64,000 bases of DNA, taken from NCBI GenBank assembly GCA_015179125.1, contig WHVA01000414.1, forward strand, positions 1 to 64,000, written 5' to 3'. The translations under genes were made by a program, and so were the position numbers. The stretch is from Gautieria morchelliformis. Lineage: Eukaryota > Basidiomycota > Agaricomycetes > Gomphales > Gomphaceae. A model generated the notes under the pieces. The model had not been told where the DNA came from and did no database searches. It saw only the letters and a program-made list of their open reading frames with translations. Numbering within the stretch: position 1 is the first letter of the stretch; each line of letters starts with the position of its first letter. Below, piece by piece: positions 2,887-35,654 of the stretch.

Positions 2887-5800
2887 TTATAGCATTAGTC
2901 CTAGCATTTTCCTGCAGCGTTCAACCTTGACCTTTGTCAACGACTTTGTCAACATGTCCGCTGGCATCTCATCGGTGGGAATGTGAGCAACTGAGATTTT
3001 TCCTTCGGTGACCACATCTCTCAGCCAGTAGAAGCGCAAGTCTAGTTGCTTGAGTCTCCCGTGGTGTTCAGGATTCTTAGCAACTTGAACTGCTGACTGG
3101 TTATCAATGAAGAGTGTAGAGGAACCTCTAGGTTTCCACCCAAGCTCAGTGAACAAATTTCCCAACCAAAGGATCTCTTGGCCTGCCGAGACAGCCGCAA
3201 TGTATTCTGCCTCTGTGGTAGACAGAGTCACCATGGTCTGCAATTTTGTTCTCCAACTGATGGCTCCAGTTCCCATTTTAACCACATATGCACCGGTGGA
3301 TTTACCACAGTCTTTGTCTCCACCATGGTCTGCATCTGAATATGACGTAAACAGCTGGGTTGACTGTGTCAAGCCTGGCTTGTATGTCAGCTTGTAGTCA
3401 AGGGTGCCCTTCAGGTATTTGAAGAGGTGCTTGACAGCTGTCCAGTGTGCCATGCCAGGATTGGAGTTGAATCTGGCCAATACTCCCACCGCATATGCTA
3501 TGTCTGGACGGGTTGCAGTAGCCAAATAAAGCAAGGATCCCACTGCATGAATATATGGCTTGTCTTTCATGAATTCAACCTCCTCCGGTGTAGAGGGAGC
3601 CTGTTGAGTGGACAGCCTGCAGCCAGGATCCATAGGAGTAAAGACTCTATAGCAATCTGAATGGCCATATCGCTCCAGAAGGTCCAAGGTATACTGCTTC
3701 TGTGAGAGTGTGAGTGTGCGCTTGGCTCGGTCCCTCTCAATGGAAACTCCAAGGAGGAAAGACGTAGGACCGAGGTCCCTAAGTTTAAAACGCTTCTTCA
3801 GCTCATCCTTCACACGCCGCATGGCTTCCTTGGACTTGGATGCAATGGTCAAATCATCCACAAAGACGGGGATGATGACCTTATCATCACCCTTCTGGTA
3901 CACCCAAATGCTATGGTCACACCTCACTTTGACAAAGTCCATCTCCCGCAGCTCTTTATCGAGCTTCTGATGCCAGATTCTCCCAGATTGCTTCAGACCA
4001 TAGATGCCTTTGAGAAGCTTGAGGAAATCATCATAAGCACCCTGGTGGAACCCCTCTGGTTGCTCCATGTAAACTTCCTGATCAAGCTCTCCATTTAGGT
4101 ATGCAGATGAGATATCGATGCTCTCGAGCTCCATGCCTTCAATGGCGGCCATTGCAAGCACAGCACGCAATGCAGCCCATTTGGCAGTGGGCGCAAACGT
4201 CTCAGTGTAGTCGAAGCCAGGCCTCTGGGCATATCCTTTGGCAACCAACCTTCCTTTGTAGCGATCAATGGACCCATCGGCTTTTCGCTTGATGAGAAAC
4301 ACCCATCGACTGCCAATGGCCTTTCTGCCTGGGGGCAGTTTGGCAAGTTTCCAGGTGCCATTGTCAAGCTGAGCTTGGATCTCATCATATGCAGCTTTGA
4401 ACCAATATTCTGCATCAGGGCGTTTCATGGCCTCAGCAAATGACTTGGGATCTGTGCTGTGGGCAGAGACCTTGAGTGCAGCCTGGAATGCACACTCAAA
4501 GCCATCATGTGCACTGAGCACTGTATCAGTCTGAGCATGAGTATAAAGAGATTCTTCTCCAGAATCAGCAGGCTGGGAGGGTGCTGGAGATGACTCCTCC
4601 TGACTGCTAGATTCAATAGCAGGAGTTCCCTCTCTGTATGTGGTGGCTTCCCACCATCTGCCAGGAGGGCGTCGCTCTCGCAAAGGATACCTTCTTATTG
4701 GAGGTGGAGGTGTAACTCCCTCAGAGTCTGAGTCTGAGTCAGAGTGAGAATCATCCAAACCATCACTGGGGTCAGGGGAGACAGCTTCTGGAGGCTCTGG
4801 GAGAGGTGCAGGAACAGCTCCCACCTGATTAGGTATATCTCCCACCTTTTCCTGTACCTCTACCTGAGGTGGACATCGCTCCACTTCAATAGTAGTAGAT
4901 GGTTCTGGAGGGGGAACTTCTGGGAGTGGTGGGTGGGTTTCCCTTGTTAGACCTGGGAAGATACGCTCATCAAATTCAGCAGTGTTGCTGATGATAACCT
5001 TCCTGGTCAGAGGATTATAGAACATCCACCCTTTATACTCGGCAGGATAGCCAATAAAGACACATTTCTCGGTATGAGAACCAAGAGGTTTGCGCTTGTC
5101 CTTCTGGACATGAACATATGCTGTGCACCCAAAGACCCGTAAATGAGAGACATCTGGTTTACTTCCATAAAACACAGTGTAGGGAATTTCTCCCTGCAAT
5201 GCAGATGTGGGGGACCTATTTCTCACATGGACCAGGGCTGGCACAGCATAACTCCAGAAGGAAGTTGGAAGGTGAGATTCCGTGAGCATGGCAATGGCCT
5301 GCTCTTGGAGAGTCCTGTTAACACGCTCTGCTACCCCATTCTGATGGGGTTCATTCCGCACAGTGTGCTGGCATGCAATCCCAGCAGTAGCTAAGAACAT
5401 GTCAAATTCTGTGGACATGTACTCCCCTCCCTTGTCATCTCGCAATGTCTTTATCTTCTGAGACGTGGCATTCTCCACATATGCCTTGAACCGCTTGAAT
5501 GCATCAAACGCATCTGACTTTGCCTTCAGCTTGATGACCACCCATAGCCTGGTGGCATCATCAATGAAGGTAATCCAATACCGGTAACCATCCTGTGTGA
5601 CAGGCATGGGACCATGGAGGTCAGAATGGATTAGAACAAGTGGCTCAGTAGCATGGAAGTTTGCTGTCTTGTTTACTACCCGATGTTGTTTCCCTGCAAG
5701 GCAGGGCTCACAGATGGGGTCTGGTGTTGCCTGTGACTTGATAGTCAGACCAGTGACCAGCTCCTTTGACACCAAATGATGGACATGAGGAAAGTTCAAG

Positions 5801-6321
5801 TGTCCAAAACGACGGTGCCATAATGTTATGTCCAGAGGACATGTGCTGATCAGCCCGGCAAATTCTGTCATTGGCTGTGTGAGACCATCTAAGTGGGCTG
5901 TATTGTTTCCAGTTACTGTGGCAGTGAAGAGGAGGCTGCCTTGCCGATTGAACAACATCTTGTCTCCCACAATGGACACATGGAAGTGTTTATGTCGAGT
6001 TAAATACAAGACAGACAGGAGGTTACTTCTCAGAAGGGGGACATGCAAGACTCTTTCAAATTCCAGCAGACGCTTAGGTAGTCCATTTACAACTGGCTTA
6101 AACCTCACAGATACAACCTCCGCTGAATGGATGGTTTGGCCATCTGCAAGACGAATGGGTATTTCAAGGGGTTGGTAAGTTGTGAACCAGTGACGATGAG
6201 GTGTCATATGTGAAGAGGCACCTGTGTCTGCAATCCAGTCAGCACTCGCCTCGACAATGAGGGCATTTGTGGGACTAGTGGGATCTGGGAGAGAGATACT
6301 TGCATTGCCTGCAAATTCCAC
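2887..6321 (-). CDS. Copia-1 Pol: protease, integrase, reverse transcriptase, RNase H
   Basis: Copia-order polyprotein of about 1144 residues. Protease motif ADTGASSHMTPH (about 31-42). GAG-pre-integrase zinc finger: H-x-x-x-H in WHRRFGHLNFPH (about 168-179) then CEPC. Integrase catalytic D, D, E in HSDLHGP (about 232), RDDKGGEY (about 294) and NGVAER (about 328). Acidic/proline linker (about 480-600). Reverse transcriptase with FVDD (820-823). RNase H with SYSDADHGG (about 982) and TTEAEYIA. The frame continues directly from Gag through a TAG at 6322-6324, and its apparent first codon is GTG, so it is probably made as Gag-Pol by stop readthrough or was one ORF before a mutation. Confidence 0.93.
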   Translation of the reverse strand: MEFAGNASISLPDPTSPTNALIVEASADWIADTGASSHMTPHRHWFTTYQPLEIPIRLADGQTIHSAEVVSVRFKPVVNGLPKRLLEFERVLHVPLLRSNLLSVLYLTRHKHFHVSIVGDKMLFNRQGSLLFTATVTGNNTAHLDGLTQPMTEFAGLISTCPLDITLWHRRFGHLNFPHVHHLVSKELVTGLTIKSQATPDPICEPCLAGKQHRVVNKTANFHATEPLVLIHSDLHGPMPVTQDGYRYWITFIDDATRLWVVIKLKAKSDAFDAFKRFKAYVENATSQKIKTLRDDKGGEYMSTEFDMFLATAGIACQHTVRNEPHQNGVAERVNRTLQEQAIAMLTESHLPTSFWSYAVPALVHVRNRSPTSALQGEIPYTVFYGSKPDVSHLRVFGCTAYVHVQKDKRKPLGSHTEKCVFIGYPAEYKGWMFYNPLTRKVIISNTAEFDERIFPGLTRETHPPLPEVPPPEPSTTIEVERCPPQVEVQEKVGDIPNQVGAVPAPLPEPPEAVSPDPSDGLDDSHSDSDSDSEGVTPPPPIRRYPLRERRPPGRWWEATTYREGTPAIESSSQEESSPAPSQPADSGEESLYTHAQTDTVLSAHDGFECAFQAALKVSAHSTDPKSFAEAMKRPDAEYWFKAAYDEIQAQLDNGTWKLAKLPPGRKAIGSRWVFLIKRKADGSIDRYKGRLVAKGYAQRPGFDYTETFAPTAKWAALRAVLAMAAIEGMELESIDISSAYLNGELDQEVYMEQPEGFHQGAYDDFLKLLKGIYGLKQSGRIWHQKLDKELREMDFVKVRCDHSIWVYQKGDDKVIIPVFVDDLTIASKSKEAMRRVKDELKKRFKLRDLGPTSFLLGVSIERDRAKRTLTLSQKQYTLDLLERYGHSDCYRVFTPMDPGCRLSTQQAPSTPEEVEFMKDKPYIHAVGSLLYLATATRPDIAYAVGVLARFNSNPGMAHWTAVKHLFKYLKGTLDYKLTYKPGLTQSTQLFTSYSDADHGGDKDCGKSTGAYVVKMGTGAISWRTKLQTMVTLSTTEAEYIAAVSAGQEILWLGNLFTELGWKPRGSSTLFIDNQSAVQVAKNPEHHGRLKQLDLRFYWLRDVVTEGKISVAHIPTDEMPADMLTKSLTKVKVERCRKMLGLML

Positions 6322-7152
6322 CTAGCTAGCTTCCTCCTCCTGCTCAGCCTGCTTGGCCTGCTCTGGCTTCTTCTTCCCCTTGTCTTTCTTCTTAGCCTTC
6401 CTCTCCTTGGCTTCCTGCTCAGCCTGACGCTTTGCATCCCTATATTTGAAGCAAGTTTCCAATGTGTGGCCAGATCTAGAGCAGAAGTCGCAAGTAGAGG
6501 ATGACTGTGGAGTCTGGGCAATCTGAGCAGATTTCATGGCAATAGTAGTAGAATCAGTGCCACGTGGAGCACGGTTCTGCTGTTCCAAGATCATAGCTTC
6601 TTTGACAGTCTGATAGTCAAACTGAGGAAGCAACATGAGGGCAGATTTGAACGCAGTATACTCCTCAGGGAGTGCCCTGATGAGTGCCATAGCAGCCAGT
6701 TCTCCGTCCATGTCATCAATGGTGAAGTTGGGTGGACGCAAATCCTGAACCTTGTTTATGGCGTCATCAACTCTGGTCATGAGAGCATTGAGCGTCTCAT
6801 CATCCTGTTTCCTGATGCTGAACAACCCGTCCAAAGCATTAAACCTGGTGGCAGGACGCTTCTGGAGGTGCACAGACTCCAGTTTGCGCCACATTTGCAC
6901 AGGATCCTCCTCCAAGCCCTTGACATGGACTTTCTGAGACGCTTCCAAGGCCAGATATATCTGTCCCGCTGCAATATCCCTGTCCTTCCTCCAGGACTTT
7001 AACTCTGCCATATCTGAGACGCCAGGCTGAGTATATTCTCCCTTGACCAGACTCCAGACCTCTTTGGTCATAAGCAATGCACGCATCTCCCCCACCCATG
7101 TATTATAGTTTCCCTCCCCAAGTTTAGTGACACGGTCACCGTCCTTTCCCAT
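6322..7152 (-). CDS. Copia-1 Gag
   Basis: 276-residue Gag from ATG 7152-7150. It has a UBN2-like capsid region (start MGKDGDRVTKLGEGNYNTW), a CCHC knuckle CDFCSRSGHTLETC (about 221-234), and a Lys/Glu-rich tail. It ends at TAG 6324-6322 in the same frame as Pol. An upstream extension lacks an ATG, so the later ATG is chosen. Its role is to package element RNA in virus-like particles. Confidence 0.88.
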   Translation of the reverse strand: MGKDGDRVTKLGEGNYNTWVGEMRALLMTKEVWSLVKGEYTQPGVSDMAELKSWRKDRDIAAGQIYLALEASQKVHVKGLEEDPVQMWRKLESVHLQKRPATRFNALDGLFSIRKQDDETLNALMTRVDDAINKVQDLRPPNFTIDDMDGELAAMALIRALPEEYTAFKSALMLLPQFDYQTVKEAMILEQQNRAPRGTDSTTIAMKSAQIAQTPQSSSTCDFCSRSGHTLETCFKYRDAKRQAEQEAKERKAKKKDKGKKKPEQAKQAEQEEEAS

Positions 7153-7954
7153 GACGCAGTCAACTAACACTAATAACTGAAAGATGAGCAGTTGTGACAC
7201 TCCCCAACTCACTGGGATGACTACCAGGATATTGTCAGGTGAGATAAAAGGTGACTCAACAGAGAGAACACCCCCAACAGTTCAAATCTATAACACAGCA
7301 GTGTCAGAGACGACACAAGGACCTAAAATCAAAGGGAAGAAATGGGTTGCAAGTGAGGGAATGGCGGAGAAAATGTGAATTGCCGGCCAGGATTTGATCC
7401 AAATGACAAATGGATTTGACCAAACGAAAGAGCGCCCTTCACTTAGTCTTGGACAAGTGGGAGGCGCCTATGAGCACACCAGTGGAGGCTCAGGGAAGCA
7501 GAATTTGCAGAAGTGTTCAGAACAGCAAGATGAGCACAAATTCAAGATTTGACCTTTGCAGCCTAACCCTTCAAGCTAATCCCTCAAATCTTGGACCCAG
7601 ACCTTCTCAGGAGCGTCAATTACCCCCCTAGCTATCCAAATAAGCGCCCAGATAAGCGGTTGGAGGATGGGGTCCAAAAAGTGCGAAAATGCAGGCAATG
7701 AGGAGGCTGATAAGGGCACAAAAGGTGGATGGAGGTCCTGGGAGGTGTCCTGGGTGGATGTGGAGGTGCTGAAGCGATTGGTGACACTATCAGAGGTCCT
7801 AGGAGCTTATCAGGGGGTCCTGAGGCGAAATCTGAGGGGATAAATGAGGACCAAGGGTGGCAGCAATGACAGAGGAGGTGTAGGAGGTGCAGGAGGTGTC
7901 TGATAAGGCTTTAGATTGTCCTGTAGGGCAGTTTAAAGGCCGGGGCCCATAACC
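7153..7954 (-). other. Copia-1 leader and half-tRNA primer-binding site
   Basis: About 790 nt of leader with no convincing coding frame. The primer-binding site GGTTATGGGCCCCG is at 7954-7941 on the minus strand, directly after the LTR end ...TTTTTTACA. Confidence 0.75.
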
Positions 7955-8156
7955 TGTAAAAAAGCGAAGTTATAGGAGCCTTACAACAAGCCTGATAAGC
8001 CTGATAAGCCTAACAAACACCCCAGCAGGTCTGGGGATGTGTGGTGAGTGCACAAGATCAGATTATACAGCTAGATACATCATACCTGGGGATGTGTGGT
8101 GAGTGCACAAGATAAGGGGCACTCTCCCACACTCCCCAGCTGTTAGCTGGCGCTTT
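7955..8156 (-). repeat. Copia-1 5' LTR, 5'-truncated
   Basis: About 202 bp matching 1957-2157. The outer ~135 bp (TGTTGAATGG...) are missing; the sequence passes directly into Gypsy-2 LTR at ...GGCGCTTTAGTTCATTG. Confidence 0.85.
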
Positions 8157-8269
8157 AGTTCATTGGGGGCGCAACCTATAAGTTGAAGCCGCTGTCCTTT
8201 CCAGTTCCGACTTAGTGGAAATCTCGATACGTAACAGTAGTATCTGATTCCCACCCGATAACTATCACT
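8157..8269 (+). repeat. Gypsy-2 5' LTR remnant, primer region and leader
   Basis: Bases 8157-8236 match the last ~80 bp of the 3' LTR (both end GATACGTAACA style), including the U5 motif GCAACCTATAAGTTGAAGCC. The primer site must start at 8237 (GTAGTATCTGATTCCCAC); I could not name its tRNA. Only 33 nt separate the LTR end from the Gag ATG. Confidence 0.8.
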
Positions 8270-9676
8270 ATGCCTCCTCGTACCACAGCTACTTCAGCTC
8301 GAGCAGGAGCTGTCGAAGCTCTCTCTTATTTTGGCAATCTTAGATCCGCAGTACCAAGGCACGCGGAACCATCTGGCAGCTCTCCTGCCAACGATGAGCT
8401 CTCCGATGCTTTTCCGCAACGATTCGAAGAAGTTCCCGACGCTAATCCCGACTATGACGGGAATTCGACGAGTAGCAGTGGCGAACAAACAGCAGCGTCA
8501 TTCCGACGCCCAGCTCCACCACCACCACCTCCACCAGGACCACCTCCAGGCGGCCCTCATGGCGGCCCACCCGGCGGTCCCCCAGGCGGTCCTCCACCTC
8601 CAATTCCACCTCAGATTCCCGCCAACCCAGTTCCGCCCGCGCCAGTTCCGGACCTTGCACAAGCCATAGCCATGCTAGCCGGACAGCTTCAGCGCCCGGC
8701 CCAAGCACCACCACGACCCAAGACAAAGGTCCATGAACCAGATCAGTTCGACGGTTCCGACCCCAAGAAGCTCCAGCCATTCCTGGTCCAGCTTCAACTC
8801 AATTTCCGTGATTGTCCCGACGCCTTTCCCAACGACGAACGAAAGGTCAATTACGCCCTTTCCTATCTCCGAGGCACAGCTCTCGACTACTTCGAACCCG
8901 CCCTCATGGATCCATTCGCTCTCGTCGACTGGGCCGACGATTACCCCAATTTCATTTCCGAACTCCGCAGCAACTTCGGACCATTTGACATGGAAGCCGA
9001 TGCGGAAAATGAACTCGATAAGCTTCGCATGAAAGACACTCATAAGATAGCTAAATATATCGTCACGTTTCAGCAGCTTGCTCCTCGAGTCCAATGGGGA
9101 GAAGCCGCACTCCGACGCCAGTTTTACATGGGCTTGCCATCCCGCATCAAGGATGAAATTGCCCGCATTGGAAAACCCGCCAACCTTGCCGACCTTCGCA
9201 ACCTCGCCCAATCCATCGATTCACGCTACTGGGAAAGACACTCCGAGATCGCTCGCGAAACTTCCACCCAGAGCAAGAACGACAAGTCTTCCGACAAGAA
9301 GTCCGATAAAGACAAGAAGAAGACTAATTCCGGAAACAACAACTCCGGAAACAACAACAACAACAGTTCCGGATCCAACTCCGGCAACCGGAACAACAAC
9401 AACAACACCCCTCGCAACAACCAGGCCTCTGGTTCCAACACGAACGCCCGGAAGAGCACTCCGGACCTTTCCGACAAACTTGGGAAGGACGGAAAACTAA
9501 CCCCTGTAGAACGCCAGCGTCGCATGGACAACAACCTTTGCCTTTTCTGCGGCAAAGGCGGTCACGTCGCTCGCGACTGCACTCGTGCTTCCGCCTCCGC
9601 TGCCAAGGCCAAGGGCCGCGCAGCAAAAACGGAAGAGAAATCCGAAGCGGTTCCCGCTGCGGATTCAAAAAAATAG
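8270..9676 (+). CDS. Gypsy-2 Gag
   Basis: 468-residue intact Gag from ATG 8270. It has an N-terminal region with proline runs and a glycine/proline repeat (about 80-115), a capsid-like helical core starting KVHEPDQFDG, a Lys-rich then Asn/Ser/Gly-rich low-complexity linker, and a CCHC knuckle CLFCGKGGHVARDC near 9538-9580. It ends TAG 9674-9676 directly after seven A's, a natural -1 slip site into Pol. It resembles Gypsy-1 Gag. Unlike the neighbouring pol it has no internal stops. Confidence 0.92.
   Translation: MPPRTTATSARAGAVEALSYFGNLRSAVPRHAEPSGSSPANDELSDAFPQRFEEVPDANPDYDGNSTSSSGEQTAASFRRPAPPPPPPPGPPPGGPHGGPPGGPPGGPPPPIPPQIPANPVPPAPVPDLAQAIAMLAGQLQRPAQAPPRPKTKVHEPDQFDGSDPKKLQPFLVQLQLNFRDCPDAFPNDERKVNYALSYLRGTALDYFEPALMDPFALVDWADDYPNFISELRSNFGPFDMEADAENELDKLRMKDTHKIAKYIVTFQQLAPRVQWGEAALRRQFYMGLPSRIKDEIARIGKPANLADLRNLAQSIDSRYWERHSEIARETSTQSKNDKSSDKKSDKDKKKTNSGNNNSGNNNNNSSGSNSGNRNNNNNTPRNNQASGSNTNARKSTPDLSDKLGKDGKLTPVERQRRMDNNLCLFCGKGGHVARDCTRASASAAKAKGRAAKTEEKSEAVPAADSKK
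9667..9676 (+). promoter_or_regulatory. Candidate -1 ribosomal frameshift site at the Gag stop
   Basis: A-AAA-AAA (9667-9673) lies directly before TAG. Slipping back one base leads into the frame reading KKIVSSPPASAR and on to the protease. The geometry fits programmed -1 frameshifting. I did not fold the downstream sequence for a pseudoknot. Confidence 0.5.
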
Positions 9677-12600
9677 TCAGCAGTCCTCCGGCCTCCGCAC
9701 GAGCTGAGGGCTGTGTTGACCCCATTCGTGCGACAAACGAGGTTAAACTCAACGCATCCGCTCTTTCGTCCTCCAACTCCCTCTCTGTTCCGCTCACTTC
9801 CGACACCATTTCCACACCCCCGTTTACCGCATTGGTCGACTCCGGTTCGACTCATTGTTTCCTCAATTCCGACTTTGTTTTGAAACACAAACTTCCGACT
9901 CGCAACATTCCGACTATTCCGCTCCGCCTTTTCGACGGGTCTTCCAACACGGGAATTTCCCAAGTTGTGGATCTGTCTATCCGTTTCGCTACTGGGGACA
10001 ACCATGAAGTTACGTTTTACGTTACTCCGCTAGATGCTAGCTGTTCCGTTGTACTAGGACACAATTGGCTCACCCGATATAATCCGTCGATTAACTGGGC
10101 ATTGGGTCAAATACAGTTCCATACCCCAGATCATCTTCCGTCTATTCCGACGTCGTCCGCAAAGATGGCTCAGGCCTCTTCTGCAACTCCACTCGTGGAT
10201 TCAGTTCTGCACTCCGGTCCCGCTTTAGCACCTCCGACCCTCGAAGCTCCTCGAATTGCGCTTGTTTCCGCCACCGCTTTCCGCGTATTGCAACGGCAAG
10301 AAGACACGACCGTTTTCCAGCTTCACCTTTCCGACTCCGCTTCAGTCAAGGCTCGTTCCACCTCGACTTCCGCTCCGGTTGATATGAGCTCAGTTCCGGA
10401 AGAATATCGTGACTTCCCGGACGTGTTCAACAAGGCCCAAGCCGATAAACCAGCTGAACATTGACCTTACGATTTGAAGATAGATTTGGAAGAAGGAGCA
10501 TCTCCGCCCCTTGGACCGATCTACTCTCTTTCGCAAAGTGAACTCCTAACTCTCCGCGAGTTCGTCGATGAACATCTCAACATGGGCTTCATCCGCCCTT
10601 CGCTGTCTCCGCACGGCGCTCCGGTCCTTTTCGTTAAGAAGAAGGATGGATCTCTCCGCCTCTGCATCGATTTCCGCGGACTCAATGCCCTCACAAAGAA
10701 GGACAAATATCCCGCTTCCGCGCATTTCCGACTCCTCGACACTCCCCGCAGGGCGAAGATCTACACCAAAATCGACCTCCGGCACGCTTATCACCTTGTC
10801 CGCATCCGGAAGGTGAAAGTGGAAAACCACTTTCCGCACCCGCTACGGTGCTTTTGAGTGGACTGTCATGCCTTTCGGTCTAACCAATGCTCCCCCGCTT
10901 TCAAGAGATTCATGAACGACGTATTTTCCGACCTCTCGACATATGTTCTAGTCCATGACGTATGCGTTCTAGTCTACATTGACGACATCCTCATCTATTC
11001 CGACACACCGGAAAACATCGGGAACATGTCCGCGAAGTACTCCGCCGTCTCCGCAAACACCATCTCTACGCAAAAGCAGAGAAATGCGAATGGCATCGCG
11101 ACACGGTCGAATACCTCGCTACATCCCACAGGTCTTACCATGGCAGAGGACAAGGTCAAGGCAATTCAAGAATGGCCGGAACCCCGACGTGTTAAGGATG
11201 TGCAGTCTTTCCTTGGCTTGCCAACTTTTACCGGCGTTTCATTTATAATTTTCCGACATTACTGTTCCGCTCACGCGTCTCACCAGGAAGGGTGCCCCAT
11301 GGAATTTTACTCCGGAATGCCGTTCCGCATTTGAAGCCTCAAAGCGGCCTTCACTACGGCTCCATACTCGGTTTCTGGATTCCTGATGCCCAACTTGTAC
11401 TCGAAACCGACGCTTCCGACTACGCGCTAGCCGCCATTCTTTCCATCATTTCCCCCGACGACGGAGAAATTCATCCATCGCTTTCATTCCCACACCTTTT
11501 CCGCCCGGAACTCAACTACGATGTCCACGATAAGGAACTCCTTGTGATTTTCGAAGCCTTCAAAATTTGGCAACACTACCTCGAAGGTCCAACTTATCCA
11601 ATGACGTTGTAACGATCATAAGAACCTTGAGTATTTTGCAACTACTAAGATTTTGACTCGCCGTCAAGTCCGCTGGTCTGAATATCTCTCACAGTTCAAC
11701 ATGGTGATCCGTTTCCACCCCGGAAAGCTCGGAGCAAAACCCGATGCGCTCACTAGACGTTGGGATGTCTACCCAAAAGAGGGAAGTAGCGACTATGCCA
11801 GCGTTAATCCGCACAATTTCTGCCCAGTATTCTCGACTGAGCAGCTGGCATCGTCCCTGCATGCCACAGCATTGCAGTTTCCACTACTCCGCGCCTCAAT
11901 CATTATGGACACCGAGTCTCTCCACTCCGACATCCGTTACGCACTTCGTTCTGACCCCATCTCCACAACCCACCTCGATAACCCAACCAGTCCTGGATGG
12001 TCCCTCGATTCCGACAGATTTCTCTGGTACAAGTCCCGGATTTACGTTCTGGACATCAATGATCTACGACTTCGCATACTCCAGCAAAGCCACGATCATC
12101 CGCTCTCAGGACACCAAGGCCAAAACAAGACCCTCGACATAATCTGATGTACCTACACCTGGCCTCTCCTCTGCATGATGGTCCAAGACTACTGCAAGTC
12201 GTGCACCACCTGTATGTGAGCCAAGCCCCAACGTCACAAACCCTACGGCCTCCTGAAGCAACTTCCGATCCCTGAACAGCCCTGGAATTCGATATCCATG
12301 GATTTCATCGAGAAACTTCCTAAGTCATCTGGTTATGATACCATTCTAGTGATCGTTGACGGCCTCACAAAGCAGTCCATCTTTATTCCAACCTACGACA
12401 CCATCACTTCCGCCCAGCTCGCACAGCTCTTTGTGCTCCACGTCTTTTCCAAGCACGGAATCCCTCCTATGTCACTTCCGACCGTGGATCAGAATTCGTG
12501 TCCTCCTTTTTCCGCACACTTGGCAAGGCTCTCGACATGAAACTCCACTTCACTTCTGGTTATCATCCCGAAGGTGATGGACAAACGGAACGTACTAATC

Positions 12601-13378
12601 AGACACTAGAGCAGTACCTCAGTGTCTATTGCAACTACCAACACAGCAATTGGTCCGACCTTCTTCCGCTTGCGGAATTCGCTTACAACAATGTGCCTTC
12701 TGCTACCACCGGAATTTTGCCCTTCTACGCCAACAAAGGCTATCACCCGAATCTCGCCATCCACCCTGAACGCGACCTCGCCTTTGCAAGAGCCCGATAT
12801 TTTGTTGTGGAACTCGACGACCTTCACCAACACCTCCGAGAGAACATCTCCGCTGCACAAAAGAGATACCAAACTTCCGCCGATCGGAAATGTCTTCCAC
12901 AACCGGCATTCGAGATTGGCAACAAAGTCTTTGTCAAAGCTGAAAATTTCCGCACCACTCGCCCCTCGAAGAAGCTCTCTGAAAAATACCTTGGCCCTTA
13001 TGAGATCATCGCTAAGGCCGGCAGTCATTCTTTCACTCTCAGACTTCCTGACAATATGCGTGCAGTACATCCGGTATTCCATGTGTCTATGCTTGAACCT
13101 GCAGTTCTGAATAACGATTCCGAATCGAGAACAACCTCCGCCCCCACCAGTGATCATCGACGGAGAACCGGAATACGAGATTTCGGAAATCCTCAATTCC
13201 AAGCTCGACAAGCGATACCATTGTCAACTACAGTACCTAGTCAAGTGGGCAGGCTACGAAAATACAGACTAAGAGACTTCCTGGATTTCTGCCACGGAAC
13301 TCGATCACGCCTCCGAACTCGTCTCAGATTTCCACAAGGCATACCCCGCCAAGCCTGGACCCCTTCTCACGTACTAAG
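9674..13378 (+). pseudogene. Gypsy-2 Pol: protease, RT, RNase H, integrase, chromodomain
   Basis: Domain order: retropepsin (LVDSGSTHCFLN, VVLGHNWL), RT ([37 protein letters not shown]), RNase H (LETDASDYALAA), linker, integrase (MDFIEKLPKS, HPEGDGQTERTNQ), then a chromodomain near 13150-13330 (EPEYEISEIL, YLVKWAGYE). Stops at 10462, 12145 and 12217 read TGA where Arg fits (EH-R-PYD, II-R-CTY, CM-R-AKP). Frameshifts occur near 10820, 10895, 11610 and 13125, and a TAA inside the chromodomain near 13272. It is not functional as it stands. Confidence 0.9.
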
Positions 13379-13506
13379 TCCCTTCCGACACCTCTGCCAT
13401 CTCCGTTTCCGTTTTCACTCCTTAAATCACAAGTTCAAATCTGATTAATTTTCCACTACACTATTTCCAACATCCCAAGAAAACTATACTACAAGTGTTT
13501 TGACCC

Positions 13507-14702
13507 CTAGTCATCCTCCATCGTGTCTTCACCAAAGCCCGCCCAGTCTTCCACTTCCAGATCCTCCGCGTTTCCGTTCTGCCCATACGCCTCTGCAAAC
13601 CTCTGCACGTCTTGGACCTCGCCCTCAGACACTTCCACCTCCACTTCCAAGTCCTCCCTCTCCTGCATCCACCTCAGTTCCGCGACGATTTGGTCGAGAT
13701 GGTCCTTGTACACGCCAAGTCGATCCGCGACTGCCAGGTAGAAGTGGTGTTGCATCTGCAACCCCTGCTCCCCCTGTCGGAGCAGTCCCCGGAGCGACCT
13801 GGCGATATCCGCAAGCGGATCTGCCATCTGCTCCTCCCGTGTTGTCCCACTTCCGCTCGCCTCCGGCCCGTCTTGGGCTTGGGATCCCCTCGCCTTGGCA
13901 GCCCTGGACAAGGGTTTCCGTGCACCCTGAGTAGGCTTTTCCGAGCCTACTTCTGATCCTCCGGTCTTCCTCCGCTTGGCCGTCACCCGAGCTTTAAGCC
14001 CGTCGACCATGCATGCCCGCTTCGCGTCCTTGCAACGATTGCACGCCGTGGCCTTTCCCGCCAAGTCCCATACGCATGGCAGGTTTTTCTCCAGACACGC
14101 GTCACAGCTAAGCTGCGATGTGCCATCTTCTTCCGGAGCCGCCCTCTTGGCCCTCTCCTTCCGGCGCTGCTTCTCCTCCTGCACCGCCCGCCATTCCGCC
14201 GTCGCCTTCCCCTTGCCCTTGTTCATTGGCCTCGGGGTTTCTTCCGGTGACGTTTCCGATGGAGATCCACTCCGCTCGCATTCCTGGTCCGCGTCGGCAG
14301 CTTTTTCCTGTTCCAATGGTCAACCACATACCATCAAGGACAAGATGCACTTACTTTCTGTGACTCGCGGTTTTCCTCCGCCTTCTCCGCGATGGCCTTT
14401 TCCGCAGCGGCTTGCTCCTCCGCAAGTTTCTCCACAGCTTCTTCGGCCTCCCGCTCCTCGCGTTTGCGCTCGATGTGCTCAAGCTCGCGCTCGCGTTCCA
14501 GCCGATCGTGTTCCTCCTGGTCCTTGTGCTCTTTTTCCCTGCGCTCTTCCTCCCTGCGCACCTCCTCCAGTCGCTCCTTCTCTTTTTGAGCCACCTCCTC
14601 AGCCTCGCGCTTTTCCGCGGGCTCCTTCTTGGCGAGAACATTGGCGAAATGCTCTTTCATCTGAGCCCTGGTCATTTTCGAGAATTCGGGAAGTGAGCTC
14701 AT
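13507..14702 (-). CDS. Antisense spliced gene in Gypsy-2: coiled coil plus Zn2Cys6-like protein
   Basis: Two exons on the minus strand: 14702-14355 (116 codons, start MSSLPEFSKMTRAQM) and 14307-13507 (266 residues plus stop). The 47-nt intron 14354-14308 has donor GTAAGT, a TTGAC branch-like site and an ACAG acceptor, phase 0. Predicted 382 residues. Residues about 20-105 are Glu/Lys/Arg-rich heptads (coiled coil). Cysteines at about 184, 187, 194, 205, 208 and 215 give CX2CX6CX10CX2CX6C, the spacing of fungal Zn(II)2Cys6 DNA-binding domains. A basic KRRK follows, then an acidic C-terminus. No stops or frameshifts, although pol on the other strand is broken. Function unknown; DNA binding is inferred from the cysteine spacing only. 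Whether it is transcribed cannot be seen. Confidence 0.72.
14308..14354 (-). other. 47-nt intron of the antisense gene
   Basis: Minus strand GTAAGTGC...TTGACC...GGAACAG. Its removal joins ESQK to EKAA in frame. Without splicing, the first exon would run into a stop within about six codons. Confidence 0.7.
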
Positions 14703-14822
14703 GATGGATCAGAATTCGACGTGTTTTTTCTCCCGCCTTTCTTTCGAACTCCGACGCGTTTGTTCACAAGTCACGTGACCCGATCTGTGGTCTCGCGTGG
14801 CTCGACCTTGAAGGGGAGATAC
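14703..14822 (+). other. Spacer and Gypsy-2 polypurine tract
   Basis: 120 bp between the antisense start and the 3' LTR. The purine-rich AAGGGGAGATAC (14811-14822) directly precedes the LTR start and fits a plus-strand primer tract. It must also hold the promoter of the antisense gene, but I see no clear TATA there. Confidence 0.65.
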
Positions 14823-15549
14823 TGTTACGACTGTTCCGATCAACCATCTCCGCCACCTCCACATATCCTCCGCACCACCTCCATACCACCTCCGACTCTA
14901 TTCCGACATCCACAACTTCCGCAACCCTCTACCTCGACCCTTTGTTCTTTCAGTACCCCTGGCCACCTCCAGATACCGGCCCCCGTACTCGACCCTGAAC
15001 ACAGCAAGATACCATTTCCGTAGTTCCGCTTCTTCCAATGCCTATTGTACTTACTCGCCTTGTTCTTTGCCATTGTACTTACCCTACCCTGCACCCCCTT
15101 GTAATCCCATTGTTCCACATTAGTTACTTGCCCCGAATGTTTATCCGATTCCCGCACTCTCCAGAACTTGCTTAGTATCATACCATTACCTGTTGCTTCT
15201 GCTCTTTGTATAAAACCCCCTCATGTATGTCTCCGTTTCTGAAATCAGATAATCGACATCGATATGTGATTCCCTTCACACTGTCTCCTGTTCTTAGCAC
15301 AGCGAGTTTTGCTAGTCTTGTCTCCCTCAGTCCTCGAACCTCTGTCCTCCACCTCTTCCATCTCTTCCAACCTTTGCCCTCCGACCCTCGACCCTTGACC
15401 TTCAGTACTCTGCTCCCAACTTCCGCCTTCTCCGATATCCGCAAGTCAACTCCGAAATACTTAGGACGGTAGTTCATCAGGGGTGCAACACATAAGTTGA
15501 AGCCGTTGTCCTTTCCAGTTCCGACCTCCGGGAATTCTGATACGTAACA
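14823..15549 (+). repeat. Gypsy-2 3' LTR, complete
   Basis: 727 bp, TGTTACGACTG...ATACGTAACA. TATAAAA lies at 15209-15215. The U5 motif GCAACACATAAGTTGAAGCC lies near 15485. Right flank TGGTC belongs to Gypsy-3 pol. Confidence 0.88.
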
Positions 15550-16531
15550 TGGTCCCACAGCTTCCGCGGAGGCAGGGCATCAAACGACTCCTTGGCAAAG
15601 ATGTCCTCAAACTCCCGCAGGTACTCCAGAATTTCTGCCTCCACTCTATCATGCTTCTTGGAGGCTTCAGCAAGGCATTGCGAAATATTTCCAGTGGCGC
15701 GGATGTGTTCCGCTTCCGGTGGAAGGTTTATGTACAGCAAGTGCTCCCCTTCTGCCAGAGTGTCTTCCGGGCCGAGTCAGATGACGTCGGAGTCGGAATC
15801 AGAATCGGAATCGGAAGTGGGACCTGGTTCAAATTCCGCTTCCGATTCTTCTTCTTCAAGCAGTGGATGGGGGCCAGAACGACATGTCTGTATGAGCCGT
15901 TCGGTCTTCCGCTGCTCCTGGTGCTCCTTCCACACTTCCGACCGGCACGTGTGACACTTGGCTGGGCATTGACTCATCAGTACCTTCCGAGTCTGCCAAT
16001 TGATCTCCGGGTTGTGCTCCTGAAGCCAGGTAAATCCGAGGATGACGTCTTGCTTCCCCAGGCTGGTGACTGCAAAGGAAGTGCGTTCTGAGTGTCCATC
16101 GTAGCGGAGAATTGTGTCTACTATCTCCGTGATGGACCCTGCCTCATTGGTGCTTCCATCCACATTGAACACCGGGATTGCACATTGCAACTTCCGCGTG
16201 GTCAGTCGGTTCCGTTCCACATAGTCCCGGTCTATAAACTGACCAGTGGCCCCGCAATCGACAAGGGCGGGTCCGGATTTGACTTCCGCCATGTCTGTCG
16301 TCTGGATCTCTACATTAATGACTAGTGACTTGGGGCCAGGGGTGGCAGCAACAACATAGCATTTCGGGAGGCGTTTCTCCCAAGGGCGGATGTGGGATGG
16401 ATGGGGTGTTGGATTTGGTTTTTGTGTGACTTTATCCGGTGGGTCTGTATGAAGCGAGGGGTGTGGGGGCTTTTAATTCTCTACTTCAAGACAGGCAAAC
16501 TGGTTATGTACAGGCAGCAGGGGCACACATC
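15550..16531 (-). pseudogene. Gypsy-3 Pol fragment: protease and pre-RT linker
   Basis: Retropepsin with LVDCGATGQFIDRDYV (active site DCG rather than DSG or DTG) and DVILGFTWLQEHNPEINW, then an acidic EEESEAEFE/SDSDSD linker. A TGA at 15777-15779 falls where DVI-R-LGPED is expected (CGA to TGA). After it comes the typical pre-RT stretch FAKESFDALPPRKLWDH, which stops at the Gypsy-2 LTR. Confidence 0.85.
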
Positions 16532-16919
16532 TCACCCGCTGCGCGTCACAAAATCTGATGCATCTTCCACTTCTGATGCACCGTGTTCCGCATTTCCAGA
16601 AATTCCTTCCGCAGTGGGCACTCCGCTTATGTCTGCGAGTGCAAGGAACTCTGGAAGGAGCTCAAGTTTCTCCTCTGTGGTCATAAGCCGGATGTCAAAG
16701 GCTTGGGGGCACTCGTGGGCATAGTGGCCTGGTTGTCGGCATCGGAAGCAGGTAGTGGTTCCGTGGCCTTTTCTACGCATGCGGTCAACATCCATCGGGG
16801 CAGGGCCACTCTTCGAGGGAGGGGGGCTGGGGTTCCTAATAGGAGCAGGCGGAGCAACTGTTGGAAATATTTTCCGTGTGGGAATGAATGCACTTCCGGA
16901 TTTTGGCACAGGTGGAGTA
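16532..16919 (-). pseudogene. Gypsy-3 Gag, C-terminal half
   Basis: Contains CCHC knuckle CFRCRQPGHYAHEC and a TTEEKLELLPEFLALAD tail, ending at a stop near 16532. Its upstream half lies at 33453-34208 beyond Gypsy-4. The apparent start near 16939 lies in the Gypsy-4 LTR and is not real. Confidence 0.85.
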
Positions 16920-16920
16920 G
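16916..16920. repeat. Gypsy-4 target-site duplication (left), AGTAG
   Basis: AGTAG here and at 33448-33452 flank the two ends of Gypsy-4. Removing the element and one copy brings the two halves of Gypsy-3 Gag together. Confidence 0.92.
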
Positions 16921-17084
16921 TGTTAGGGATCGTCCACAAAGTAGCTCCCTATTTATGAACATTTACTAGGTAGTTAATTAGTTTCAAATGTCCTCAAGAA
17001 AGGTTGTATTAATATTTCTATGCTACACTCACATTGGGTCCACAAGATACAACAATCTTGATAGTTTAGCTAAGAATCCCCCAC

Positions 17085-33452: not shown

Positions 33453-34208
33453 GACGAGTGGAACTGCGTGTCATGCTTCCCTGTTTCGGGACACCCTCCG
33501 TGCAGCTTGGTACCACCCTTCCAGGTCATCGAAATCCGGAGCTCCATCCCCAAGCAGCGCAACTTGGTTCTGGAGTGTCGGATCAAGCCCTCGTCGGAAT
33601 TTGATGACGATCGTCTTGTCGTCGTCATACTCCGCAAGGTCGATGAGCTCCTGGAAGCGGTCAATGTAGTCATCGACTGGATCCTTGGCCTGGTACCAGC
33701 TGGTCCCCTCGAGCTTTGTAAGGGCTGTGAGCTGCTCATTTTTCGTGCAGAACTGGTCGGAAAATGTTTTCTCGAAGGCGTCCCAGTCCCGGAAGTAGTT
33801 CCCCTTGCCCTTTGCTTCATGTCGGATCACCTTGTTTGCAAAACGGGCTGCGCGATCCGACTTGAAAAAGGACAATGCCCAGTGAATCCGAGCCTGGTTG
33901 TTCGGAAAGAGGTCTCTGACAATTGTGAAGTAGATGCTGCATGGGCTGAAGAATGCGCGTCCCTTCTCCCAATCTCCATCAAAGTCCGCCAGATTTGCGG
34001 GTTTGACCTTTGCCAACTTTGCGGAGATCCTCTCTTCCACCAGTTCCGCTTTTCCAAAATCTGGCTCATCCAGCATTGCATTTCCACCACTTTGTGGAAT
34101 ATCTAACTTAGCCAAAATCGTTTGTAAAGCTGTTTCAATCACGTCGGTCTTCATCCGGTTCCGCGTCAATTCCTCCTCCATATTCCGAAGACGATCATCC
34201 GGATCCAT
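33448..34208 (-). pseudogene. Gypsy-3 Gag, N-terminal half
   Basis: ATG 34208-34206 (MDPDDRLRNMEEELTRNR), capsid-like core (DWEKGRAFFSPCSIYF, SFFKSDRAARFANKV, PVDDYIDRFQELIDLAEYDD, GLDPTLQNQV). It is open to TGA near 33473. The next residues of the protein (MTRSSTRPTPPVPK) read in another frame, so a one-base deletion lies just before the Gypsy-4 insertion. The C-terminal half is at 16532-16915. Confidence 0.87.
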
Positions 34209-34469
34209 GTCAGAAGGGGAAATATGGGGGATGGGATTTCGGATTTTATCCTACAGACTTAGGACTCAGCAAGACAATGCACACAGACTGGGGAAATATG
34301 GGATGGGATTTCCGGGGTTGGGAGCTCGACGTAAGAAGAGGGGCTGTCGTATACCGTGTGTGCGGAAGAGGTTGCGATCTCCGAGTCGCTGTCTCTGATT
34401 CCGAATGCACCTATGGCGAATGCAACGCGCAGTACGACCGCTGGTCCTCTAGGGGAGAGACTTTTCTGC
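34209..34469 (-). other. Gypsy-3 leader
   Basis: 261 bp between Gag and LTR; contains a repeated GGGGAAATATGGGATGGGATTTC-like phrase near 34217 and 34291. The primer site must lie next to 34469 (minus strand GCAGAAAAGTCTC). Confidence 0.5.
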
Positions 34470-34959
34470 TGTAAGGGCAACCCTGGCTGGTTGTGGAGAT
34501 CACACTACCACACAACTGACAAGGGGAAATCCAAAGTATGTATAAATGAACAGAGTATACAAGAGAGGGGATTCTCACCTGACAAGGGGAAATCCAAAGA
34601 GAAAAGTCTAAGGACCCCCAATGTCAGCGAGCCCGTATTATACTACGCTGCGCAGCAAGGGACAACACTTGGCACCCGCCATCAACCCTGCATCCCCCTG
34701 ACCTCCCTGACCCTTGATCGACCCTTGATGTCACCCATTACACGAGTCGCTTGATTTCCGACACTGTTCCGAGAGTGGAAGTCAGAAATTGGAGTGGAAC
34801 TGGCAAGGCAAACAGAACTGGTGGAAGTTCTCCCAGGAGCGGAATCATTTCCGAAGGCAGAGGCGGAGATGGAATTGGAACCGGAAGCAGAGTCGGAAAT
34901 GGAGTCGGAACTGGGTGTGGTGTTGGAACTGGAAATGGAAAACAGGGTGTCCCCTGACA
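34470..34959 (-). repeat. Gypsy-3 5' LTR (probable)
   Basis: 490 bp with TG...CA ends on the minus strand (TGTCAGGGGACACC...GTTGCCCTTACA), in the right place upstream of Gag. It contains a direct repeat of ACAAGGGGAAATCCAAAG (near 34520 and 34582). No second copy is in the window to confirm the ends. Confidence 0.6.
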
Positions 34960-35654
34960 GCTCCACCATAACCTTATTACACATGGACATGATCAAAAAA
35001 TTGATGAAGGGCATATGTTATAGTTTGTTTTCTTGGGAGGAAAGGAGTTGGAATTCAGTTGGAGATTCAAAACACTTCAAAAAATTCAGATGCGCATACC
35101 TAATGCCAACAAGGAGCCACCTACATTGCATGATGTTCTAGCACTTATATGCTCCAGACCATGACTCTCAGTAGATGTGAGGCAACCTGACAGCTCATGC
35201 TTCCACTTGCCCCACCACCCTCATCTCATGCTCAACCACTCAGCTTGTGTGCCACCAAAGTGCTTGTCCTTGGAATGGGTTTAGGTTGGTGGGGTGAAGA
35301 GGGCAATCACACTTCATTTTTTTTTTTTTTCATTTTCTTTTATGTACCTCCATGTTTAGTACCTGAAAATCAGTACTAAAAAGAACTTATTTTCAGTGCT
35401 ATTTAATGAAATTCTTGAGCACTGATTTGTCAGTGCTCGAAGCTACGGATTATTGCTGTTTGTATAAAAGGTACTGAAATCTAATGTTGGAGTTTTCTAC
35501 AGTGCATACTTGCCCACACAGCTAGAGTCCCTGCAGATTGTTCCTGCAGCAATTTATCATAATGTGTTACTGGGACTTAGTTCTCATTTATCATTTCTAA
35601 TAGTGAATGGGACAACACGCTGGTTGACTTGCATCCAAACAGTCACAGTCAAGA
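34960..35654. other. Flank of Gypsy-3, no gene recognised
   Basis: AT-rich, with a T-tract near 35318-35333 and a short inverted repeat around 35355-35440 (TCAGTACT, CAGTGCT words). Nothing coding. Confidence 0.4.

Follow-up and report, generated by a model that had tools for sequence, protein, structure and literature searches.

Genes lying antisense to gag and pol, between pol and the 3' long terminal repeat (LTR), have been described in plant Ty3 elements (PMC7264820, PMC11963269), and a fungal antisense gene, brtn, has been reported in the Boty element of Botrytis and Sclerotinia (PMC7264820, PMC8365987, PMC4227169, PMC5987419). The available part of the review PMC7264820 gives no function for the antisense genes that it lists. 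Here we analyse a 64-kb stretch of DNA (hereafter the window) from the 122 Mb assembly, in 1113 contigs, of Gautieria morchelliformis (GCA_015179125.1, contig WHVA01000414.1, positions 1 to 64,000), in which a degraded Ty3-type element on the plus strand (8156-15549) carries a minus-strand gene (14702-13507) of two exons and 382 residues, located in the interval that separates the end of pol (about 13378) from the 3' LTR. An initial annotation of this locus had proposed a two-exon antisense gene with a 47-nt intron and six cysteines, and its coordinates and structure were confirmed. That annotation had also cited antisense reading frames from plant Ty3 elements only, which holds for plants and needs to be widened, on the available descriptions of brtn, to a fungal case.

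The antisense gene and its copies in the genome

When this genome was searched for the zinc part of the protein, at least 151 matches were obtained (150 of 587 candidates scored), a count in which one broken copy may yield two matches, and the identity among the matches listed ranged from 100% down to about 35%. In the thirty loci L001-L030, the end of pol was matched on the stop-codon side of the gene in 28, the LTR on its start side in 25 and both in 24, with the order and orientation of pol, gene and LTR remaining constant wherever both flanks were matched. The group at about 35% identity constitutes a second gene class occupying the same place (L031-L036; hereafter class 2). A genome search with one class-2 protein returned at least 106 matches (103 of 1088 candidates scored), the first 24 of which are 95-100% identical, at least 390 codons long and devoid of stops.

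The intron is well preserved among these copies. Its GTAAGT donor is exact in 26 and its GAACAG acceptor in 25 of the loci L001-L030, its length is 45-48 nt wherever both ends are intact, and the splice signals are kept even in copies with a flanking exon merely 65-73% identical. An antisense intron survives reverse transcription because the sense RNA does not see a backward intron. In class 2, the four copies inspected present GTGAGT at the corresponding site, and the putative intron measures 51-54 nt by count, a multiple of three, with some copies readable through it.

Pairwise ratios of nonsynonymous to synonymous divergence (dN/dS) were computed in all six frames for loci hand-picked as fairly complete. 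In its own frame the gene yielded 0.21 for either exon (120 pairs per exon, from 16 of 23 close loci), and the class-2 gene yielded 0.20 (66 pairs, from 12 of 16 loci). The frame sharing wobble positions with the gene yielded 0.33-0.38 and the remaining four frames of the same DNA 1.16-1.55, so that of the six frames the own frame alone has a dN/dS close to 0.2 in both exons and in class 2. Because own-frame dN/dS is low, the gene is under purifying selection. The neutral dN/dS and the lack of homologues beyond this locus that the initial annotation had named as grounds for abandoning its proposal were hence both contradicted, with many homologues found in two classes.

Selection on the gene is no stronger than on pol. 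Over all 23 loci (L001-L023), the ratio of means was 0.31 and 0.25 for exons 1 and 2 (medians 0.25 and 0.23), compared to 0.27 (median 0.13) for a 200-codon piece of class-1 pol in 22 of the 23 loci, and over all 16 class-2 loci it was 0.21 for the gene versus 0.12 for pol (pol from 14 of the 16). Special preservation of the gene relative to pol is consequently not supported, since dN/dS in pol is about equal or lower. Pol is indeed broken beside the gene in the window copy, where its open pieces span more than one frame and terminate at three or more TGA stops (10462, 10855 and 12145), and the portrayal of an open gene next to a broken pol is accurate for that copy. It does not stand as a general rule: pol is open over long frames in other copies of the element, and stops occur in several copies of the gene.

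These data bear on two alternative accounts of the gene. A functionless passenger, derived from a host zinc-cluster gene captured by the element, would be in line with the presence of an intron and with gene capture by retroelements, a process considered in the available part of PMC7264820. The same position wherever flanks were matched, the two deeply split classes and the purifying selection refute this account unless the frame control is wrong, and we assign it next to no probability. Alternatively, the antisense RNA and not the protein could matter, through double-stranded RNA or promoter interference, and the accessible text of PMC7264820 indicates that such transcripts can regulate retrotransposons. 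This explanation is very improbable and largely refuted by an own-frame dN/dS of about 0.2 that is frame-specific in two classes, and by the occurrence of introns of 45, 46 and 48 nt, besides 47 nt, with intact splice signals. Our confidence is high that the gene is genuine and belongs to the element under selection. Selection and copy number show it to be a working, inherited component of the family and not a stray host gene.

Searches of protein databases (about 5.8 billion proteins) with the full-length protein, its zinc part and a 26-member alignment (thresholds on the expectation value, E, of 0.001, 0.1 and 0.01) returned no relative. Two of these searches scored about 8000 candidates picked by shared words and the third scored 569, and the collection may contain few fungi; for these reasons, the confinement of the gene to one species is not demonstrated. 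Separately, the HSP60 loci L056 and L057 are nearly identical, which suggests that both nuclei of a dikaryon are represented in the assembly. Because both nuclei may be assembled, copy counts are possibly doubled by allelic copies. Loci L013 and L014, alike throughout their pairwise comparison, are a possible allelic pair.

A zinc-cluster-like protein and a dense TTCCG/CGGAA motif

Zn2Cys6 domains (PF00172) present the cysteine spacing C-x2-C-x6-C-x5..12-C-x2-C-x6..8-C, and CGG is the classical half-site of zinc-cluster proteins. From its N terminus onward, the predicted layout of the antisense gene product comprises a charged coil, a six-cysteine cluster, a basic stretch and then another coil. 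An open frame of at least 180 residues with a six-cysteine pattern of this spacing was found in 36 of 46 distinct loci. Twenty-six of those 36 loci made up alignment A1, in which the invariance of the cysteines is partly a choice effect, because members were picked by the six-cysteine pattern. PF00172 was matched by 16 of the 26 members at E up to 5. When the halves of the cluster were considered separately, N-terminal halves matched profile positions 7/15 to 34-36 in five of five copies and C-terminal halves matched positions 1-13/14 in four of five (E 0.0055-4.8, with pseudo-symmetric halves and related copies), and the two halves appear to be arranged in swapped order. Neither of the two half-cluster peptides had a match in sequence searches of the PDB. 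Two analyses agree on a zinc-cluster fold, with weak scores. In the AlphaFold2 prediction, the long C-terminal helix shows a per-residue confidence (pLDDT) of 83-98 over residues 161-240 and of 57 over residues 241-250, and this predicted helix probably makes the protein a dimer.

The element harbouring the gene is densely populated by a short word. TTCCG occurs 68 times on its plus strand, where base composition predicts 9.9, and CGGAA occurs 23 times, where it predicts 4.7 (together, 14.6 expected). Of all 5-mers present at least 12 times in the element, TTCCG shows the largest excess. The over-representation affects coding and non-coding parts alike, both in 8156-15549 and in L031-L040. In 1-kb bins, the excess ends at the left edge of the element and runs on rightward into the remnant of a second, unrelated Ty3 family (B); apart from another patch at 33.5-35 kb, the remaining bins of the window have 0-3 motif sites. 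In the LTRs one orientation predominates: 21 LTRs contain 258 TTCCG versus 25.0 expected and 25 CGGAA versus 4.5, a ratio of about ten to one, with up to 8 TTCCG per 100 nt. Across the genome, three TTCCG within a short distance occur 20,911 times versus 1,283 for the reversed pattern (overlaps counted). In contrast, seven host chaperonin loci, two of them near-identical, contain 42 sites on both strands versus 53.5 expected. In the element's own family (A), A or C is preferred as the base following TTCCG. No fixed spacing of paired motifs stood out on inspection by eye, without a statistic.

Codon-preserving shuffles did not explain the motif excess overall, and codon usage was set aside as its source. 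TTCCG was found 12 times in gag versus 4.1 in shuffles and 12 times in protease versus 5.6 (0 of 1000 shuffles each), and CGGAA, on the coding strand, 12 times in the class-1 gene versus 4.9 and 23 times in the class-2 gene versus 11.0 (0 of 1000). The TTCCG count of the reverse transcriptase (RT) piece was reached in 12 of 1000 shuffles. Genes of a copia element used as control (2887-7212, minus strand, with a 1144-codon open frame) presented no motif excess. CpG retention was likewise rejected as the cause, with one-base variants at 0.3-2.6 times expectation and TTCCG at 7.7 times in family A.

The family-B remnant adjoining the element (15550-17000, minus strand) is 31% identical to it over the protease. 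This family is very abundant, with 2756 first-look candidates in the genome search, 150 of them scored. In the family-B copy L051, completed by L060, the LTRs are 464 nt long and 99.8% identical, and the 3' LTR overlaps the end of the pol frame; no antisense gene was found in L052, the 3' part of a second copy. Family-B stretches carrying the motif include positions 1-5740 of L051, and a further motif-rich patch of the window (33500-35000) has a minus-strand gag frame and is family-B-like by eye. Motif and gene are not strictly linked, because the motif is present in family B, whose examined copy is devoid of the gene.

This dissociation is accommodated by two explanations that uncouple the gene from the motif. 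According to the first, the antisense gene has no connection with the TTCCG arrays, which are recognised by a host factor or function as a signal in the sense RNA. The motif is common to families A and B although only A was found to have the gene, and in A more sites lie on the sense strand (68 to 23). However, both strands are enriched in both families, which counts against a purely RNA signal, and the host chaperonin loci are not enriched, and we regard this explanation as quite unlikely. According to the second, the gene encodes a functional accessory protein acting independently of TTCCG, such as a copy-number repressor or a nuclear trafficking or chromatin protein, as considered for the plant antisense reading frames, which have no assigned roles in the available literature. 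Selection and conservation demand only some function, and the family-B copy has the motif without the gene. Nonetheless, the domain is similar to Zn2Cys6 clusters that bind DNA, and dense arrays of a CGG-containing word, about ten to one in favour of one orientation, occupy the adjacent LTR. Such a role is rather unlikely, although less so than an unrelated host factor.

The remaining explanation connects gene and motif. Antisense transcription would begin close to the LTR, with the conserved 120-nt leader as its probable start region, and the transcript would be spliced, as the conservation of its splice signals suggests. The protein would enter the nucleus and bind the TTCCG/CGGAA words of its own element, densest in the LTRs, and this binding would raise or de-silence transcription of its own family in trans. 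A nuclear regulator, in line with the control in trans considered in the initial annotation, is judged a likely role; the complete chain, from antisense transcription and splicing to a nuclear zinc-cluster protein that binds CGGAA arrays and thereby activates or de-silences its own family, is offered tentatively, at somewhat less than an even chance. The more specific version, in which a half-swapped zinc-cluster protein reads a five-base word present about a dozen times per kb in coding, antisense-coding and LTR parts of its element and thereby shields the family from silencing, with the gene-less family B having accumulated this word and riding on the protein, is unlikely.

Several observations weigh against this chain. 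In a one-by-one Pfam scan, the Zn_clus cut-off (21 bits) was passed by one of 20 members (L042, 22.2 bits), the other 19 reaching at most 19.9 bits or having no match; exon 2 of the window copy had no match to the Zn_clus profile, and a short zinc-domain model gave no zinc-cluster match. The structure prediction and profile search suggested by the initial annotation lend weak support to a zinc cluster. With its halves swapped, the cluster may not read CGG at all. Analysed from LTR to LTR, the family-B copy L051/L060 leaves no room for an antisense gene, nothing inside the element matched the gene, and its gag and pol contain TTCCG and CGGAA beyond codon shuffles on both strands. Of the four pol pieces of the window element, the two from integrase show no TTCCG excess (440 and 220 of 1000 shuffles), CGGAA being reached in 6 of 1000 in one of them. 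Between copies, TTCCG sites were kept just slightly better than other CG-containing 5-mers (0.785 versus 0.717), ranking 20 of 105. The motif, moreover, was spotted in the sequence first and tested afterwards, it fills coding sequence as well, unlike the targets of the Arabidopsis VANC proteins, and the choice of activation over repression is a guess.

Element structure and the separate histories of pol and gene

The sense strand of the window element, a putative Ty3 chromovirus, has matches to gag, protease, an RT piece, the integrase zinc domain and a Tf2-type SH3 domain, and a chromodomain-like stretch was read by eye in a shifted frame. The features of the element and of the antisense gene are compiled in Table 1. 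Rfam and ARAGORN scans of the window returned no matches. The ratio of observed to expected CpG per 1-kb bin is about 0.8-1.25 over the motif-bearing element, whereas a large part of the remaining window lies lower, at 0.12-0.7, and further bins reach as much as 0.97; either youth or escape from methylation could explain the higher values over the element.

Table 1. Features of the Ty3-type element and its antisense gene, in window coordinates
Feature	Coordinates	Strand	Remarks
5' LTR remnant	8156..8236	+	about 80 nt left
gag (capsid and CCHC knuckle)	8270..9676	+	
Protease-RT-integrase region	9677..13378	+	broken; chromodomain-like stretch at end, by eye
Antisense gene, exon 2	13507..14307	-	266 codons and stop; own-frame dN/dS 0.21
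Predicted long C-terminal helix, candidate dimerisation coil	13570..13818	-	exon-2 residues 164-246
Six-cysteine cluster	14011..14106	-	C-x2-C-x6-C-x10-C-x2-C-x6-C
Antisense gene, intron	14308..14354	-	47 nt, GTAAGT...TTGAC...AACAG
Antisense gene, exon 1	14355..14702	-	116 codons, ATG at 14702; highly charged coiled-coil-like stretch; own-frame dN/dS 0.21
Leader between LTR and gene start	14703..14822	-	120 nt, CACGTG at 14772-14777; candidate antisense promoter
3' LTR	14823..15549	+	TG...CA, 727 nt, 7 TTCCG sites
TTCCG/CGGAA motif field	8156..15549	.	68 TTCCG and 23 CGGAA on + strand

Comparison of the two gene classes with the window in 150-nt bins (7 class-1 and 5 class-2 loci) revealed a mean similarity over pol (12000-13050) of about 0.91 for class 1 and 0.92 for class 2. 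Both classes fall at about 13350, in the spacer; class 1 recovers to 0.86-0.90 in the gene, whereas class 2 remains at 0.38-0.51 across most of it. Within class 2, synonymous divergence is 0.649 in the gene versus 0.195 in pol (91 matched pairs, with the gene higher in 86). Because pol similarity is equal while the genes diverge, pol and the gene-LTR module have had separate histories, as expected from recombination in reverse transcription or from pol homogenisation. The LTR pairs of L037-L040 agree with such separate histories: LTR identity is 95.5-98.0% in L037, L038 and L040 and 82.6% in L039, which is probably a chimeric element. A correlation between gene and LTR divergence was also computed and set aside, its alignment filter having admitted LTRs missed by BLAST.

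The leader, with a palindromic TCACGTGA, is much alike in both classes even though their genes are only about 35% identical, and it also adjoins the polypurine tract for sense replication. Of 22 distinct copies compared over 160 nt of leader, 19 contain CACGTG. When 400 nt of the antisense side were scanned in 16 copies, a TATA-like word turned up in a single copy, and inspection by eye revealed none in the window.

Comparison with known systems

The plant aORF-3R genes (Grande gene23, RIRE2, Retand TRP28, PvRetro13) share the position and orientation of the gene reported here, which lies on the strand opposite to gag-pol between pol and the 3' LTR. They are present in most copies of their elements, and some are nuclear or possibly DNA-binding (PMC7264820, PMC11963269). 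In the present genome many copies of the gene were likewise found, at loci sampled through the gene itself. The available text on the plant genes names no zinc cluster, and the word "intron" is absent from the main text of PMC7264820 and PMC11963269. In the case of brtn, a fungal Ty3 element likewise has an extra antisense gene between pol and the 3' LTR; the citing papers, through whose descriptions alone the comparison was made, do not mention a zinc cluster, an intron or a motif field in their available parts. No report of a zinc-cluster gene in a fungal retrotransposon was found in open-access PubMed Central among the titles and abstract openings listed, and a text search of "LTR Retrotransposons in Fungi" (PMC3248453) showed that the terms antisense and zinc are absent. 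An antisense gene between pol and the 3' LTR is hence known, and its zinc-cluster version is new as far as this literature search goes.

The protein resembles Zn2Cys6 transcription factors (PF00172; PPR1, GAL4, LEU3, PUT3) in its six-cysteine spacing, basic stretch and coil, and in the predicted helices after C1 and C4. It differs from them in having a coil before as well as after the cluster, in the apparently swapped order of its halves and in being encoded by a retrotransposon. The TET/JBP dioxygenases of fungal DNA transposons are likewise transposon-borne and have been proposed to mediate escape from silencing, but they are enzymes, reside in DNA transposons and have no motif field named in the accessible part of PMC12730594.

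The anti-silencing VANC proteins of the Arabidopsis VANDAL DNA transposons combine an element-encoded protein with a dense, one-orientation short motif in their own family (PMC5735166). In the genome studied here, the TTCCG/CGGAA motif is dense in family A and not enriched in the seven host loci or the window copia element, and is dense in family B too. VANC6 motifs are also found in AT9TSD1, which has no relation to VANDAL, according to the available part of PMC5735166, and this offers a precedent for a motif shared beyond gene carriers. As described there, VANC differs in the type of element, in its longer motifs, located mainly in non-coding tandem repeats, and in that binding was shown by experiment.

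Three features go beyond the initial annotation: the TTCCG/CGGAA motif, the presence of two gene classes with a common pol, and the apparent half swap. Antisense Ty3 genes recur in plants and fungi, and here a DNA-binding-type domain, selection and a candidate target motif come together, so that the question of function comes down to a straightforward test of binding. Should the motif prove to be the target, the two gene classes and the second motif-bearing family would provide built-in comparisons, and the system would represent a retrotransposon counterpart of plant VANC anti-silencing.
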